Below, one piece after another: positions 55,410 through 63,822 of a stretch of DNA of 64,000 bases. Source of the DNA: Desulfobulbaceae bacterium (lineage in GTDB: Bacteria > Desulfobacterota > Desulfobulbia > Desulfobulbales > Desulfobulbaceae). The stretch is taken from the NCBI GenBank assembly GCA_015489765.1, contig WFZC01000198.1:21076-85075 (forward strand), read 5' to 3'. The notes under the pieces were generated by a model that saw only the letters and a list, made by a program, of their open reading frames with translations, was not told the DNA's origin and did not search any database. Numbering within the stretch: the first letter of the stretch is position 1; every line of letters begins with the position of its first letter. A program made the position numbers and the translations under genes.

Positions 55410-56207
55410 TTATTTTTTAATGGGCGGCGATTCGGGAGGCTGCCAGTTGGCCTGTAACTCCACTAACTTGGCGTATTTGTAAAATGTTCCCTGAAAGTTG
55501 CCAAGGGCAATGACCATTCCCGGCCAACCGTCAAGGATTCCTCTTTTGATAATATACATGTGGAAAAAGGACCAGCAGCCCCGGGCCAGGGCTGTAACCA
55601 TGGTGGCCTTGCGGCCGTTTGCCTGCAGTTTTTTGGCACCAAGGGTTGAATATTTATTGGCCTTGTGTGCGACTTCTTCCAGATTCTTAAAGGGAACCTG
55701 CCAGATGGCCTGTTTCAGGTAGCCGGGCGGTTTTGCCGAGACGATTCGGTATCCCTCATGGACCTGGTCCTGGTTGTTGAATACGAGCGCTCCCTTTTTA
55801 AAGAGTTGCGGTTGGCGATAATCTGGATAAAAACCGGAATATTTCATCCAGCGGCCCATGAAGAAATTTCGGCGGGGAATATAGTAGGCGTCGGCCGGCT
55901 CGGGAAGGGCAATGGTCTGCAGGATTTCGTCACGGGCCTCGGGCGTACAGCGTTCATCGGCATCCAGAGAAAAAATCCAGCCATGGCTGCAGGCGGCCAT
56001 GGCCCGATTACGGAGATCGCCAAATCCGTTAAACTCTATCTGCACAACCCTGGCCCCCATTTCCTCGGCAATGGCAGCGGTGTCATCGTCACTGAAAGAA
56101 TCGGCAACAACGATTTCATCGGCCCATAGTACGGAGTTAATGGCCGAACGGATCTTATCCGCCTCGTTATAGGCGATAATATAAACGGAAAGCAGGTGGG
56201 AATTCAT
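55410..56207 (-). CDS. Family 2 glycosyltransferase, WaaE/KdtX-like
   Basis: The 265-residue protein resembles WaaE, which adds beta-glucose to heptose I of LPS core: Ile-Ile-Ala-Tyr-Asn-Glu-Ala near 10, Val-Val-Ala-Asp-Ser-Phe-Ser-Asp-Asp near 33, Ser-Leu-Asp-Ala-Asp-Glu-Arg near 80 and Pro-Arg-Arg-Asn-Phe-Phe-Met-Gly-Arg-Trp near 115. A C-terminal amphipathic segment may attach it to the membrane. Its ATG overlaps the stop of the PilB-like gene by 4 bp, so the two are co-transcribed on the minus strand, convergent with the other LPS genes. Confidence 0.89.
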   Translation of the reverse strand: MNSHLLSVYIIAYNEADKIRSAINSVLWADEIVVADSFSDDDTAAIAEEMGARVVQIEFNGFGDLRNRAMAACSHGWIFSLDADERCTPEARDEILQTIALPEPADAYYIPRRNFFMGRWMKYSGFYPDYRQPQLFKKGALVFNNQDQVHEGYRIVSAKPPGYLKQAIWQVPFKNLEEVAHKANKYSTLGAKKLQANGRKATMVTALARGCWSFFHMYIIKRGILDGWPGMVIALGNFQGTFYKYAKLVELQANWQPPESPPIKK

Positions 56208-58453
56208 GCCCGACGAACGGCCTGGGGTCTGGGTCTGCCGCCGCCTGCCAACTGGACCACGATGCGGTCGGTTTTTTGCAGTCGGCCAACCAGGGTTTTG
56301 AACAGATGTTTGGACACGTCAGGATATTTTTCTATCAGTTCTTCCAGCTTATCACCGGGATAACGCTTGACAGTGCATCGGCCTGCCGAAACAATGGAGG
56401 CACTGCGGACTTCATTTAAGATCGAGGCCATTTCACCGAAATATTCTCCCGGTTCGGTAATCTCGGCAATTTTTTTCCCTCCCCGCAGGACCGCTACCTT
56501 GCCCCGAACCAGCTTGAAAAAATCCTTGTCCTTGTTTCCCTCCTGGATGATGGTATCGCCTTCCTGGTATTCTTCCACATCAGGGTTGACCAGATAGGCG
56601 GGCAGGCTGTCTTCATGGACTACTGTACGTCGCAGGACCTCTTCCAGGCTGGTTATACCTTCCCTGGCCTTTTGCAGGGCTGCCTGGCGCAGGGTATACA
56701 TCCCCTCTTGAACCGCTACCTTGCGCAGCTGTTCCTCGGAAACCTCGGCCTGGATGGCTTTGGCCACCTCATCGGTTACCTCCATCAGTTCAAAAAAACC
56801 GACCCGGCCCTTGTATCCCAGGCCATTGCATTCCGAACATCCCTTGGCCTTGAACAGCTGCAGGTCGTCAATCTCTTCCTCTTTAAAGCCGGCCGCAATC
56901 AGTTCCTTTTTGCTATAGGTGGCCGGTTCCCGGCATTTGAGGCAGAGGCGCCGTCCCAGCCTCTGGGAAAGGACCATGGTCAGAGAAGAAGCCAGCAGGT
57001 AGGGTGGAATACCTATATCGACCATACGGCCGACCGTGGCCGGAGAGTCATTGGTATGGAGGGTTGAGAAGACAAGATGGCCGGTCATTGCCGCTTTCAT
57101 GGCGATTTCCGCAGTATCGATATCACGAATCTCACCAACCATGATGATGTCCGGATCCTGACGAAGAAAGGCCTTGAGGGCGGCGGCAAAGGTCATCCCG
57201 ACCTCGGTGTTGACGTTGACCTGGTTGATACCCTTGAAGTTGAACTCCACCGGATCTTCTGCCGTCAGGATTTTAATGTCCTCGCTGTTGAGTGAATTAA
57301 GCGCTGAATACAGGGTTACGGTTTTACCGGAACCGGTTGGGCCGGTAACAAGAAGCAACCCCTGGGGCCGATTGAGACACCGTTTGAGGGCATCAAAGGT
57401 CTTTTGTTCAAAGCCCAGCTTGGTCAAGTCGACGTTGAGTGAACTTTTATCCAGGATACGAAGGACAATACCTTCACCATGGAGCAGAGGCAGGGTTGAC
57501 ACACGAAAATCCACCGCCCTGTTGCGGCCCATCCGCATTTTGATACGTCCATCCTGGGGAACACGCCGTTCAGTGATGTTGAGATCGGCCAGGATCTTGA
57601 CCCGGGCAATGAGGGCGTTTTTAATGGTCAGCGGCAGGTTCATGGACTTAAAAAGCGCCCCGTCTTTCCGGTAACGGACCTGCATGGTTTTTTCAAAAGG
57701 TTCAATATGAATATCACTGACCCCTTCCTGGACCGCCTTGACCAAAATACCATTCACCAGCTTGATAATCGGGGCATCGGAGGCGGAAAACTGATCAAAA
57801 CTGCTCTCGTCCTCCTCACCGGTCTCGATTTCAAAATCTTCAGCAGCATCGGACACCAGGGCGCCAAAATCCTCGATCTGGGTGATCTCTTCCGTCCCCA
57901 GGTCGTCTTCCGGCTGGGAGGCAAAAAATGATTGATACTCCTCCTCGTCAATCTTGTAGTATTTCTTGTAGGCATCAATGATGTCCTTTGCCGTGGAGAC
58001 ACAGACATCAAGATCCATGTTGACCAAGTCCTGAAGCTCCTCCACCTCGATATGGTCGGTGGGCTCGGCCATGGTGACCTGGAGGGTGTTGCCGGCCCGG
58101 CGCAGGGGGAAAGCGAGGAATTGTTTTGCCTTTTCATAGGGGAGCAGTTCCAGCACGTCCGGACTGGGCACCTCGTCCTCGAGCGAGACCAGGGTATAGT
58201 TATGCATGCGGCTGAGAAACTTGGCAATGGTATCCCGCTCCAATGTACCGTTTTCAAGCAGGATACGCCCCAAGCGCTCACCGGTCTTTCGATGGATCTT
58301 TTTTGCCTGTTCAAACTGGTTGGCGGTGATGTAGCCAGCTTTCTGCAGGAGTTCACCGATCTTGAACTTACCGGCCCCGGACTGGTCCTTGACCGTCCGC
58401 TTCCGGGAGGTTTTCCGGTGAATATTTTTTTTGGTGGCAGTTGTCTTGACCAT
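56204..58453 (-). CDS. pilB: PilB/GspE-type assembly ATPase with C-terminal cyclic-nucleotide-binding domain
   Basis: The 749-residue protein contains, in order, a GspE N-terminal domain (about 30-180), an acidic linker, the hexameric secretion ATPase core with Walker A Gly-Pro-Thr-Gly-Ser-Gly-Lys-Thr near 370, Asp-box and Walker B further on, and a tetra-Cys zinc site (CxxC near 503 and near 540). After the usual PilB end, residues about 620-735 form a cNMP-binding domain (Gly-Asp-Thr-Ile-Ile-Gln-Glu-Gly near 632; Phe-Gly-Glu-Met-Ala near 676). It would drive type IV pilus extension, with nucleotide or other ligand control. No other pilus gene is in the window. The Arg-rich C-terminus is unusual. 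Confidence 0.88.
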   Translation of the reverse strand: MVKTTATKKNIHRKTSRKRTVKDQSGAGKFKIGELLQKAGYITANQFEQAKKIHRKTGERLGRILLENGTLERDTIAKFLSRMHNYTLVSLEDEVPSPDVLELLPYEKAKQFLAFPLRRAGNTLQVTMAEPTDHIEVEELQDLVNMDLDVCVSTAKDIIDAYKKYYKIDEEEYQSFFASQPEDDLGTEEITQIEDFGALVSDAAEDFEIETGEEDESSFDQFSASDAPIIKLVNGILVKAVQEGVSDIHIEPFEKTMQVRYRKDGALFKSMNLPLTIKNALIARVKILADLNITERRVPQDGRIKMRMGRNRAVDFRVSTLPLLHGEGIVLRILDKSSLNVDLTKLGFEQKTFDALKRCLNRPQGLLLVTGPTGSGKTVTLYSALNSLNSEDIKILTAEDPVEFNFKGINQVNVNTEVGMTFAAALKAFLRQDPDIIMVGEIRDIDTAEIAMKAAMTGHLVFSTLHTNDSPATVGRMVDIGIPPYLLASSLTMVLSQRLGRRLCLKCREPATYSKKELIAAGFKEEEIDDLQLFKAKGCSECNGLGYKGRVGFFELMEVTDEVAKAIQAEVSEEQLRKVAVQEGMYTLRQAALQKAREGITSLEEVLRRTVVHEDSLPAYLVNPDVEEYQEGDTIIQEGNKDKDFFKLVRGKVAVLRGGKKIAEITEPGEYFGEMASILNEVRSASIVSAGRCTVKRYPGDKLEELIEKYPDVSKHLFKTLVGRLQKTDRIVVQLAGGGRPRPQAVRRA

Positions 58454-58526
58454 GAAAGATGTAAGTTTTTTTCTGTTTTAAATTCTCTAATGAGAGACTG
58501 ATTTACATTATGATACTATAAAAAAG

Positions 58527-58565
58527 AAACCGGGTCAAAAGCACTCTCCACTTTTGACCCGGTTT
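58527..58565 (-). terminator. Rho-independent terminator of fhs
   Basis: AAACCGGGTCAAAAG (58527-58541) and CTTTTGACCCGGTTT (58551-58565) form a 15-bp perfect stem with a 9-nt loop. On the minus strand it is followed by CTTTTTT. It ends transcripts from fhs before the pilB-like gene. Confidence 0.88.
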
Positions 58566-58650
58566 TCTAAAAAAGGGATTTTTAATGAATTATCCCCTCG
58601 CCGGCGGATGGAACTGCACCCCAAAGGGCCACGCTACAAAATGCATGGAA

Positions 58651-60414
58651 TCAGAAGACTCCTTTCACCTTGCCGGTTTCCACATCGACGTCAATGCGGC
58701 GATAGGCCGGATCAGAGGCCGTACCCGGCATCAGGCTGATGGCGCCTGCCACTGGCACGACAAAGCCCGCTCCCTTATAGGTGAGGATGTCGCGGATGGG
58801 CAGGGTCCAGCCCTTGGGCACTCCTTTCAGTTTGGGATCGTGGGAAAGGGAGAGGTGGGTCTTCACCATGCAGGTGGTCATCTCTTTCATCTCCGGATCG
58901 GCCTCGATGCGTTTGAGCTTGGCAGCCGCCTCGGGTGAGTAACTGACACCGTCGCCGCCATACACCTCTTTGACAATCAGTTCAATACGCTTGGAGAGAG
59001 GAGTGTCCAGGTCGTAGAGAAATTTGAAATCGTTGGGTTCTTCACAGGCGTCGGCAACAGCGTCGGCAAATTCAAGGGCCCCTTCACCGCCATGCTCCCA
59101 GTGCCGTGACAGGGCGACTCTGGCCCCGGCTGCTTCAGACAGACGCCGAACAGCGGCGATTTCGTTATCCGTGTCGGTATAGAAGGCGTTGATGCAGACA
59201 ACCGGGTTGATGCCGGCCTTCTTGACGGTCTCGATGTGGTGGATAAGGTTGGCGCATCCCTTTTCAACCCATTCCACATTTTCACCTTCATATTCCTTGG
59301 GCATGGGTTTGCCGGGCACGGGAATCGGGGCGCCGCCGTGACATTTGAGCGCCCGGATGGTGGCGACCACTACCGCACAGTTTGGTTTCAGGCCGGAATA
59401 GCGGCATTTGAGGTTCCAGAATTTTTCAAAGCCGATGTCAGCGCCAAATCCGGATTCGGTTACGTTGTAATCCGCCAGTTTCAGGGCGACCCGGTCGGCA
59501 ATGACCGAGGACTGGCCGATGGCGATATTGGCAAAGGGGCCGGCATGGACAATCACCGGCTGTCCCTCCAGGGTTTGCATCAGGTTGGGGTTGATGGCAT
59601 CAACCATCCAGGCCGTCATGGCGCCGTCCACCTCGAGATCAGCCGTTGTGATCGGCCGGTCCTGCTTGTCGTAGGCCACAACAATCCTGCCGATACGTTC
59701 CCGCATGTCTTTCAAGTCCTTGGCAATGGAGAGAATGGCCATTATTTCCGAAGAAACCGCAATGTTAAAGCCGGACTGCATGGTCATGCCGTCCATCTTG
59801 CCGCCTATGCCCATGGTAATGTTGCGCAGGGCCTGGGCGCAGAAATCCATGATCCACCTGAACTCAACCTTCTTGGGATGGATGTCCAGTCGTTTCAGGT
59901 TGCGCATGGCCAACTGTTCGTCAGTATAGTTGCACTCATGCTGCATGCGGGCGGAAAGGGCAACCATGCCCAGGTTATGGGCATTCATGATGGCGTTGAT
60001 ATCACCGGTCATGCCCAGGGAAAAGGGTGTCAGGGGGATACACTGGGCCAGGCCGCCGCCCGCGGCAGAGCCCTTGATATTCATGGTCGGTCCGCCGGAG
60101 GGCTGCCGGATGGCGCCGACAACCGACTTGCCGCGTTTTCCCAGGCCCTGGACAAGCCCCATGGCACAGGTGGATTTTCCTTCACCAAGCGGCGTAGGAG
60201 AGATGGCGGTAACATCAATGTATTTTCCGTCCGGTTTGTCCTTTAACCGGTCAAGAATCTTACGGTAATCCAGTTTTGCCAGATAATGGCCATGGGGAAG
60301 CAGTTCTTCTTTTTCCAGGCCGAGCTGTTCGCCCAGTTCATAGACTGTTTTCATCCGGCTTTCAGCTTCTTCTGCAATTTCCCAGTCCGCGTGCTTGGTG
60401 GGATCCAAAACCAT
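58651..60414 (-). CDS. fhs: Formate-tetrahydrofolate ligase
   Basis: The 587-residue enzyme joins formate and tetrahydrofolate with ATP to make 10-formyl-THF, feeding purine synthesis and the methyl branch of the Wood-Ljungdahl route. It has the P-loop [10 protein letters not shown] at residues 73-82 and [13 protein letters not shown] near 104. The start has AAAGGAGG; an upstream frame of 40 residues is not used. Length is near the usual 555-590. A strong promoter lies 92 bp upstream. Confidence 0.96.
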
Positions 60415-60760
60415 AGGGTCCTCCTTTACGTAGTAAGGTGAGTGGGGGGTAGAGTATGAGACAGCCCAGGAAGACTCCTGTGCTAAAAACGACGATAATC
60501 CCAAAAAATTAGCAGGTTTGAGGAAAGATGTCAATAAAGAGCGCCTGTAAAATCACGATGCGATCTGGTAACCTGCTGAAAAATATATTGGAAAATGTTC
60601 TTTGAGCCTGCTGGTTCCTGGGAAAATGATTTTCCATTTCCGGCTGCTTTCCCGGCAATATTCAGACATCAGCCAAGGCACATATTTTCGCATACCTTTT
60701 CATGCCCTGGATGTGGTGGATGAACCGAAATTCCTTGTCGTCGGGTTGTTCCTGGAATCC
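60415..60760. other. 346-bp spacer between thyX and fhs
   Basis: It contains the fhs promoter (60506-60534) and an AAAGGAGG site. No gene or riboswitch-like structure was recognised in the remainder. Confidence 0.5.
60506..60534 (-). promoter_or_regulatory. Strong sigma-70-type promoter of fhs
   Basis: On the minus strand a perfect TTGACA (60534-60529), a 17-bp spacer and TAATTT (60511-60506) precede fhs by about 90 bp. Confidence 0.6.
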
Positions 60761-61693
60761 TCAGTGAAAAATATCAGGGAAGCGGGTTTTGAACTCTTCC
60801 TGCAAGGGGATCATTACTTCGCGCATGGATGGTTCGGCTGCCTTGGTTGTCCGAAGGTTGAAAATATGGCGCCACTCCGCCAGGTTGGCGTAAACGATCA
60901 GTTCTGTTTTGCAGGAGTTGGGCAGGACGGTCCTGGCCGCCTGCGGGCTGGAAGTCTCAAGGAGCTGCAGATACATCTTTTCCGTGTCCAGCATGGCCCG
61001 GTGCCAGATGGCGTATTCCGGACTGTCTTCCTCAAAAAACATGGGCTTGATAAAGGTGACCTCATTGCCGAATTTATCGTCACTGTAACGGCAGTACCGC
61101 TGGCTTTCCTGGAGAAAGGAACAGGGACGATGGCGTACGATTTCGTGGGTAATGGCCCGGTTGACGATAAATTTGACTCCGATATGGCGATGTTTGGCCC
61201 GTTGTTCCGGAGGCAACCGGTCAACATCTGCCAGTTCCATTTTTGTTACCGAAATTGTCGGGTCGTCCTTCAGTCCGTTTTCCGGCAGGATGGTACTGAA
61301 AAAATAGGGATGACGACGATTGAGGTAACTGCACATGGCCCGGACCATCGCACAGTCCGGGTGGAACATGAGCATTTCGCGGAAGGCCCGGACACTGCCG
61401 GTAACAAGCAAGTCATCTCCCTGGCGGTCAATATGCAGGTATTTTGGCTGGGTGAGGAACAGGTCGATTACCTTCTGCTGATCGCTGCAAAGCACCTGCA
61501 AGGTAACGACCCCCATTTCCAGGACCGAGTTATGCCCATGTTCCGCCATTTTGGTGACAAAGGGAAGGGCGGAGTCGCGATCGATCTTGTCCTCGCTCTT
61601 GTAACAGATGCGGCCACAGAATTCGATACGAACAGCCAGGCTTTCATGGTCAAGATGGTCCAGCACTTCAAACGAGGGCGGTACTATGTGCAT
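60761..61693 (-). CDS. thyX: FAD-dependent thymidylate synthase
   Basis: The 310-residue flavoenzyme methylates dUMP with methylene-THF and NADPH. The ThyX signature is present as Arg-His-Arg-Pro-Cys-Ser-Phe-Leu-Gln-Glu-Ser-Gln-Arg-Tyr near residues 187-200 (RHRxxSxxxxSxRY), with Gly-His-Asn-Ser-Val-Leu-Glu near 53. The ATG is preceded by AAGGGAAAG. It lies 105 bp downstream of nifS on the same strand and upstream of fhs, another folate gene. Confidence 0.95.
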   Translation of the reverse strand: MHIVPPSFEVLDHLDHESLAVRIEFCGRICYKSEDKIDRDSALPFVTKMAEHGHNSVLEMGVVTLQVLCSDQQKVIDLFLTQPKYLHIDRQGDDLLVTGSVRAFREMLMFHPDCAMVRAMCSYLNRRHPYFFSTILPENGLKDDPTISVTKMELADVDRLPPEQRAKHRHIGVKFIVNRAITHEIVRHRPCSFLQESQRYCRYSDDKFGNEVTFIKPMFFEEDSPEYAIWHRAMLDTEKMYLQLLETSSPQAARTVLPNSCKTELIVYANLAEWRHIFNLRTTKAAEPSMREVMIPLQEEFKTRFPDIFH

Positions 61694-61798
61694 CGTTCTT
61701 TCCCTTTGGTCGTATTTTTTCGGGTGGATGCTGCGTTGGCAACCGGAATGGGGGACTGTTTATTCCGGGTAGTTTTGCGTTCTCCTGCTTTTGCCTTC

Positions 61799-62986
61799 CT
61801 ATTCGTCTTCTTTCCAGAAGGGTGATAATTTGCGCAGGTTGGCGATAATGGCTGGCATCTTGTCCAGGACCAGGTCCACCTCTTCTTCGGTGTTGTAAAT
61901 GGAAAGACTGAAGCGGATGGAGCCGTGGGCCGCTGTAAACGGCACTCCCATGGCCCGCATGACATGAGATGGTTCAAGGGAGCCGGAAGTACAGGCCGAT
62001 CCCGAAGAGGCGCAGATGTTATACCGATCCATGTGCAGGAGTATGGCCTCGCCTTCGACAAATTCAAAACTGATGTTGCTGGTATTGGGAAGACGTTTTT
62101 CCGGATGTCCGTTAAGCATGGATTTAGGAATGGTGGAAAGCAGTCCTTTTTCCAGTTTATCGCGCAGGGCCTTGACCCTGGTATTTTCATCCTCCATGGA
62201 TTGGCCGGCCAGTTCACAGGCACGGCCAAGGCCGATAATTGAGGCCACATTTTCCGTGCCGCCCCGTCGTCCCCGTTCCTGATGACCACCGTTGAGAAAG
62301 GGGACAAACGGGGTGCCCTTGCGGACATAGAGGACTCCCACTCCCTTGGGCGCATGCAGTTTGTGGCCCGAGAGGGAAAGAAAATCAATATTGTTTTCCC
62401 GCATATTTATGGGGATTTTACCCACGGCCTGGACCGCGTCGGTGTGAAAGAGAATACCCCGTTCCCGGGCCATGGCCGCCATTTCTTCAACGGGAAATAT
62501 GACCCCGGTTTCATTGTTTGCCCACATGATCGAAATAATGGCCGTGTCATCGGAAAGCGCCTTTTTGTAACTGTCCATATCCAAAAGGCCGTCGGCGTCG
62601 ACCATGAGCCTGGTCACTCGATGTTTATGACCGGTGAGCTGGGTCAAACTTTCGCACAGATTTTTCACCGCCGGGTGTTCCACTCTCGTGGTAATAACGT
62701 GCCTGTTCTCCGGGTAGGTCTGCAGGGCAGAGAGAATGGCGGTTGAATCACTTTCCGTGCCGCAGCTGGTGAAGACAATCTCTTCGGGGTCGGCCCCGAG
62801 AAGATCCGCCACCTGGGCCCGGGCCTGTTCAATGGCCCGGCCGACCATGCCGCCGAATGTGTGCATTGATGAGGGGTTGCCGTAACAATCGGTCAGAAAC
62901 GGCATCATGGCATCAACCACCTCGGGCGCAATGCGGGTGGTTGCATTGTTATCCATGTAGATGACCTTGTCACTTCCGCAGTTCAT
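61799..62986 (-). CDS. nifS: Cysteine desulfurase, NifS type
   Basis: The 395-residue PLP enzyme supplies sulfur for Fe-S clusters. Met-Asp-Asn-Asn-Ala-Thr-Thr near residue 11 is the conserved start, Ser-Gly-His-Lys-Leu-His near 205 holds the PLP Lys, and Ser-Ser-Gly-Ser-Ala-Cys-Thr-Ser-Gly near 327 holds the persulfide Cys. A GGAGG site lies within the end of nifU, and the two genes overlap by 1 bp. Despite the name, no nitrogenase gene is in the window; a general housekeeping role is likely. Confidence 0.95.
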   Translation of the reverse strand: MNCGSDKVIYMDNNATTRIAPEVVDAMMPFLTDCYGNPSSMHTFGGMVGRAIEQARAQVADLLGADPEEIVFTSCGTESDSTAILSALQTYPENRHVITTRVEHPAVKNLCESLTQLTGHKHRVTRLMVDADGLLDMDSYKKALSDDTAIISIMWANNETGVIFPVEEMAAMARERGILFHTDAVQAVGKIPINMRENNIDFLSLSGHKLHAPKGVGVLYVRKGTPFVPFLNGGHQERGRRGGTENVASIIGLGRACELAGQSMEDENTRVKALRDKLEKGLLSTIPKSMLNGHPEKRLPNTSNISFEFVEGEAILLHMDRYNICASSGSACTSGSLEPSHVMRAMGVPFTAAHGSIRFSLSIYNTEEEVDLVLDKMPAIIANLRKLSPFWKEDE

Positions 62987-63822
62987 TATTTATCCTCCTC
63001 AACAATCAGGGTATCGACGACCTGCTCACGCAGTTTCTTTTCCACATATTCTTTCAGGGTCGTCCGGGAGGATTGGCAGCCGGAACAGGCGCCGCGCAGG
63101 GAGACGGTAACAAAATCCCCGTCCACGTCCACAAGTTCGATATCTCCTCCGTCTTTTTTCAGGGTAGGCTTGATCTCCCGTTCCAGGACCTGCTCTATTT
63201 TTTTAATCTTCTGCAGGGTGGTCATACGCTGGTCTTTATGGGGTTTGGTTTTTTCAGCGGCAATGCCTTCAACGGTCTGTTGCAGGATTTCACGCAGCCG
63301 GTCTTCACATTTTCCACAGCCGCCGCCTGCCTTGGTAAAGTTGGTGATCTCTTCAACCGAGCGCAGGTCGGATTCCTTGATGGCACGAATAATTTCAAGG
63401 TCGGTCACCCCAAAGCATTCACAGACGACCTCACCTTCGGCCATGGGCAGGATGACCCCCTTGTAATCGGCAATGGCGGCTTCCAGGGCCTCGCGCCCCA
63501 TGACCGAACAGTGCATTTTTTCCTTGGGCAGGCCGCCCAAGGCCTCGGCAATATCTTCATTGGTGATTTTTGAGGCCTCTTCAATGGACATGCCCTTGAT
63601 GATTTCGGTCAGCACCGAGGATGAGGCAATGGCCGAGGCACAGCCAAATGTCTTGAATTTGGCATCGGTGATGATACCGTTGTCGTCAACCTTGATGGTC
63701 AGTTTCAGTGCGTCTCCGCAGGAGAGAGAACCGACATCACCCGTACCGCTGGGATTTTCCAGCTCCCCGACATTTTGCGGGTTCATGAAATGCTGTTGAA
63801 CTTTATCCGTATATTCCCACAT
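62986..63822 (-). CDS. nifU: Fe-S scaffold protein NifU (three domains)
   Basis: The 278-residue protein has the full NifU layout: an IscU-like scaffold (1-125; Cys-Gly-Asp, Phe-Gly-Cys-Ala and His-Cys-Ser ligands), a central BFD-like [2Fe-2S] domain (about 130-185; Cys-Glu-Cys-Phe and Cys-Gly-Lys-Cys) and a C-terminal Nfu domain (about 205-278; Cys-Ser-Gly-Cys). It assembles and hands on clusters made with NifS sulfur. The length matches classical NifU. An AAGGAA site precedes the ATG. Confidence 0.95.
   Translation of the reverse strand: MWEYTDKVQQHFMNPQNVGELENPSGTGDVGSLSCGDALKLTIKVDDNGIITDAKFKTFGCASAIASSSVLTEIIKGMSIEEASKITNEDIAEALGGLPKEKMHCSVMGREALEAAIADYKGVILPMAEGEVVCECFGVTDLEIIRAIKESDLRSVEEITNFTKAGGGCGKCEDRLREILQQTVEGIAAEKTKPHKDQRMTTLQKIKKIEQVLEREIKPTLKKDGGDIELVDVDGDFVTVSLRGACSGCQSSRTTLKEYVEKKLREQVVDTLIVEEDK

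Follow-up and report, generated by a model that had tools for sequence, protein, structure and literature searches.

According to a 2024 review of PilB, the input of cAMP to pili is transcriptional only and runs through Vfr, while the direct nucleotide input is c-di-GMP acting at the N-terminus (PMC11656802); in P. aeruginosa, cAMP affects pili through transcription by Vfr (PMC11656802). MshE is under direct control by c-di-GMP, exerted at the end of the ATPase opposite to the one considered here (PMC5013675). The 24-residue motif of the responsible module, MshEN, was defined in PMC5013675 and extended in PMC11731258. What type IV pili do in cable bacteria is described as unclear, gliding being a possible function (PMC10580974). 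A PilB carrying a cyclic-nucleotide-binding (cNMP) domain is the subject of the present analysis, and we found no description of this architecture among the open-access papers searched.

The gene, pilB, occupies positions 56204..58453 on the (-) strand of the window, by which we mean the whole 64,000-nucleotide stretch of Desulfobulbaceae DNA analysed, and all features given below lie on the same (-) strand. The open reading frame starts with ATG, contains no internal stops and encodes 749 amino acids. The reading frame and its translation, the NCBIfam model TIGR02538 and the orthologs identify the product as a type IV-A pilus assembly ATPase with a C-terminal cNMP domain. The original prediction had named the protein PilB/GspE, and only the first half of this name stands: the score against TIGR02538 (PilB) is 758.5 bits with a cut-off of 675.65, whereas that against TIGR02533 (GspE) is 567.8 bits and falls below the cut-off of 630.25, so that a GspE identity was rejected. 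Pfam analysis revealed three domains, each above its cut-off: MshEN at residues 85–171 (57941..58201; PF05157, E 2e-14), the T2SSE ATPase core at residues 224–608 (56630..57784; PF00437, E 3.8e-137) and cNMP_binding at residues 627–710 (56324..56575; PF00027, 58.1 bits, cut-off 27.5, E 9e-16), the last also recognized through its relatives in the PDB. The Walker A motif, GPTGSGKT, is located at residues 371–378, and both this motif and the other ATPase residues are intact in the fused PilB. The zinc-type cysteines Cys504, Cys507, Cys539 and Cys542 show no variation in 60 sequences.

The cNMP domain with a Phe-Gly-Glu-Met-Ala motif, predicted to follow the ATPase, was confirmed, with the motif at residues 672–676. 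These residues open the phosphate-binding cassette (FGEMASILNEVRSA, residues 672–685, 56399..56440). Comparison of the 74 unique fusions revealed that F672, G673, E674, M675, R683 and A685 are invariant in all of them, and likewise in 125 of 125 non-identical sequences (51–99% identity), a set formed by the 74 fusions together with copies from named genomes. The 14-residue cassette contains 6 of the 10 invariant positions of the 84-residue domain (P 0.001, with positions treated as independent). Residues outside the pocket are also invariant in the 125 sequences, namely G651, G691, P699, G700, P711 and R724, with R724 located in the C-helix region, which together with a variable tail spans residues 711–749 (56207..56323). 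In the alignment with E. coli CRP, whose reference sequence was confirmed to be identical to PDB 1g6n, CRP residues E72, R82, S83 and T127 correspond to PilB residues E674, R683, S684 and T728. These four CRP residues are ligand contacts, with Thr127 contacting the adenine. CRP Ser128 is not matched, the PilB residue being D729. Of the 125 sequences, 100 have Thr or Ser at position 728; at position 684, 99 have Ser or Thr and 16 have Tyr or Phe. By sequence, the nearest solved domains in the PDB are those of PKG, PKA, HCN and SthK, with the PKG domains scoring best.

The original prediction had pointed to a conserved Arg in the ligand pocket as the residue to check, and to a lack of ligand-binding residues in homologues as the sign of a purely structural domain. 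R683 is invariant in 125 of 125 sequences, and no such lack was observed, with G673, E674, R683 and A685 present in every one of them. Since the Glu and Arg of the cassette are invariant throughout this set, the predicted capability of the domain to bind a ligand is well supported. Part of this conservation could be an inherited constraint of the fold, because the Glu and Arg belong to the general consensus of the cNMP family. The AlphaFold2 models of the cNMP domain were not confident, with a pLDDT of 35 for the domain alone and a mean of 64 for the full-length protein, in which the cNMP part was mostly below 50; shallow alignments are probably responsible. The models were of no use for judging the pocket, and docking of the domain on the core is therefore unsupported by the modelling.

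The ATPase core and the cNMP domain are connected by a joint at residues 609–626 (56576..56629), with a mean identity of 0.79 compared with 0.82 for the ATPase core. T610, P618 and P624 of the joint are invariant in 74 sequences. An acidic linker lies at about residues 168–223 (57785..57940 for residues 172–223), with 21 acidic and no basic residues. The linker had been predicted to be extended; it is present and acidic, but comparison with ten unfused Desulfobacterota PilBs revealed linkers of 52–59 residues that are equally long and acidic, and the idea that the linker is peculiar to the fusion was rejected.

At the N-terminus, we looked for the MshEN motif (R/K/L)LGxx...LxxxLxxQ as two 24-residue copies five residues apart. 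Both copies were found with the exact five-residue spacer at residues 31–83 (58205..58363), a region of 53 residues that scores 47.9 bits against NF053729 (cut-off 38). The window copy departs from the consensus at K51, H54 and M83, which are ligand positions. Many relatives are nearer to the consensus, with Gln at position 54 in 48 of 74 and at position 83 in 31 of 74. It is possible that the N-terminal MshEN module of the fused PilB binds c-di-GMP.

A search for the same fusion elsewhere, which the original prediction had proposed, showed that it is widespread. Judged by the reach of the match into the C-terminal domain, fused PilB is present in 128 of the 146 genomes sampled from the order, which its named relatives mark as Desulfobulbales. 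In 120 of them the match starts in the N-terminal region and continues unbroken at least to residue 737, and in eight further genomes it is made up of pieces that reach the C-terminal domain, both totals being tallies from the listed match rows. The few PilB matches that end earlier are partial, several of which lie at contig ends, and no full-length ortholog without the cNMP domain was seen among the 146 genomes. Given this order-wide presence and the 120 single continuous matches, we rejected a chance, annotation or assembly artefact. A class-level sample gave the same picture of the distribution, and 72 full-length genes from named genomes likewise carry the fusion. Among the best 80 of 318 matches in the named-genome scan, the titles that name a group refer to Desulfobulbales-type organisms, and the named carriers are Desulfobulbus, Desulfogranum, Desulfopila, Desulfofustis, Desulfoprunum and Ca. 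Electrothrix marina.

Outside the order, the fusion was found in six families of the phylum (f47, f40, f20, f18, f17 and f94; 52–67% identity). All other PilBs listed from the phylum end at about residues 610–626, in agreement with the prediction that the usual PilB ends near residue 615, and these unfused Desulfobacterota sequences align no further with the query. In a tree of the ATPase core, fused and unfused PilBs are split with 100% ultrafast bootstrap, indicating that, among the sequences sampled, the fusion arose only once. The cNMP domain, as read from these sequences, was fused once, in the ancestor of Desulfobulbales and a few neighbouring families, and then kept. Two fused PilBs of family f47, which lies outside the order, L099 (G386) and L061 (G428), have 67% identity and nest in the clade of the order (support 90), a position which suggests that the fused gene as a whole was transferred horizontally. 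In the fused PilBs that are most distant, L104 (G396) and L105 (G417), an extra Pro/Ala-rich tail of about 180 residues extends past the cNMP domain.

In the window, pilB is flanked by a formate-THF ligase gene and by a family 2 glycosyltransferase gene that overlaps it on the same strand. Where the contigs of relatives are long enough, pilB in most cases follows iscU-iscS-thyX(-fhs) and lies away from other pilus genes. The iscU-iscS-thyX-(fhs)-pilB block is conserved in much of the order (window 56204-63822 (-), L133-L212), placing pilB in a housekeeping block and not in a pil operon. The family 2 glycosyltransferase gene directly follows pilB in many members of the order and is not kept order-wide. 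The PilC-type and PilT-type genes of the window's genome are located on other contigs.

Class III cyclases were found in 133 of the 146 genomes of the order (E ≤ 1e-10), and class I cyclases in 61 of 146. The window's genome encodes two class III cyclases, of which one, a receiver-cyclase, bears the Lys/Asp adenylate signature and the other Lys/Thr; we take both pairs of substrate residues to be adenylate-specific in class III cyclases. In two near-complete genomes with the fusion (G116 and G128), the search for classes I and III returned no class I match and no class III match above the cut-off. Another genome of the order, G018 (1.7 Mb, 100% complete), has neither a PilB ortholog nor a class I or III cyclase match; joint loss of the two is possible and concerns this one genome. 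Several cNMP-domain proteins are encoded in each of eight genomes tested, G018 included, which shows the domain itself to be common in these genomes. In the window's own genome (G000), contig C266 (L221) carries an open reading frame for a 916-aa cNMP-domain protein and, at a distance of about 6 kb, a class III cyclase gene.

We consider it fairly probable that in the Desulfobulbales PilB a cyclic nucleotide, most likely cAMP, binds the C-terminal domain and alters pilus extension, perhaps with c-di-GMP input through MshEN added. As the ligand, cAMP is the best reading, and cGMP would be less likely. In the proposed mechanism, cAMP produced by class III adenylate cyclases (in part of the order also class I) would bind the C-terminal domain, and the C-helix would shut over the base in the way known from CRP, PKA or SthK. 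This motion would reach the ATPase core or the hexamer by way of the conserved joint (residues 609–626), changing the readiness of PilB to extend pili, and the MshEN module may contribute a c-di-GMP input at the N-terminus. The conserved site suggests that the messenger acts on the motor directly, besides acting on its genes. Direct nucleotide control of the motor, as originally predicted, would be the most plausible purpose of the fusion. A more tentative proposal, to which we give somewhat less than even chances, is an order-wide motor with two messengers, in which c-di-GMP at MshEN and cAMP at the cNMP domain of one PilB hexamer jointly decide extension. If this were true, the action of cAMP would extend beyond transcription to the motor itself, in cable bacteria as well.

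The invariance of the joint and of the non-pocket positions G651, G691, P699, G700, P711 and R724 is also what a ligand-free, structural domain might display, one that stabilizes the hexamer or offers a docking surface for a partner such as the platform or a polar localization factor, and the two near-complete fused genomes without recognised class I and III cyclases fit such a role. However, conservation within the domain is highest at the residues that correspond to the ligand contacts of CRP and PKA. As in EAG/hERG-type channels, cNMP domains that no longer bind a ligand usually lose their contact residues, and the retention of these residues in PilB makes a structural role unlikely. The same two genomes are consistent with a nucleotide other than cAMP, such as cGMP or a cyclic dinucleotide (c-di-GMP or cGAMP). 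The Ser or Thr at position 684 would accommodate cGMP as well as cAMP, and PKG domains are the top PDB matches. The mononucleotide cassette, on the other hand, is intact, a CRP-like Thr or Ser is found at position 728, and the cyclases of the window's genome have substrate residues of the adenylate, not the guanylate, type. A candidate c-di-GMP site is already present at the N-terminus, and c-di-GMP is an unlikely ligand of the C-terminal domain, any action of it on PilB being expected through MshEN; overall, we regard a different nucleotide as improbable.

In M. xanthus, PilB signals to exopolysaccharide production independently of pilus assembly (PMC5544727), and in many relatives glycosyltransferase genes adjoin pilB. 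The fused PilB could accordingly be mainly a signalling protein, in which cAMP shifts the conformation towards exopolysaccharide or another output and not towards extension. This seems very improbable, as the Walker A motif and the other ATPase residues are intact, no partner pathway was identified, and the adjacent glycosyltransferase is not retained in all of the order.

The window PilB resembles known PilBs (TIGR02538; solved relatives 5zfr, 5tsg and 6olj) in its N-terminal MshEN-type domain, its acidic linker and its T2SSE core, which has Walker A and the four cysteines of zinc type. Known PilBs stop at about residue 611 of the window protein, whereas the window PilB continues into the conserved joint and then the cNMP domain. 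With MshE and other MshEN-type ATPases it shares the ATPase superfamily, a second-messenger module on one polypeptide and both 24-residue motifs with the exact spacer. The module of MshE is N-terminal and reads c-di-GMP, whereas the extra module of PilB is C-terminal and of the mononucleotide type, and the MshEN motif of the window protein itself is degenerate at three ligand positions. The cAMP-receptor domain of CRP and Vfr is similar in the Glu, Arg and Ser of the cassette and the Thr of the C-helix (29% identity over 126 aa), but the fused PilB has no DNA-binding domain, its cNMP domain being joined to a motor. The cNMP domains of PKG, PKA, HCN and SthK belong to the same family by sequence, with the FGE...R-x-A cassette and its 8-residue spacing, and differ in the effector, which in the PilB fusion is a secretion-type hexameric ATPase. 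A cNMP sensor on the extension ATPase throughout the order, Ca. Electrothrix included, would be a means by which cAMP feeds directly into a bacterial surface motor. The parts all belong to known families, and what is new is that an order has them combined as an ancestral trait.
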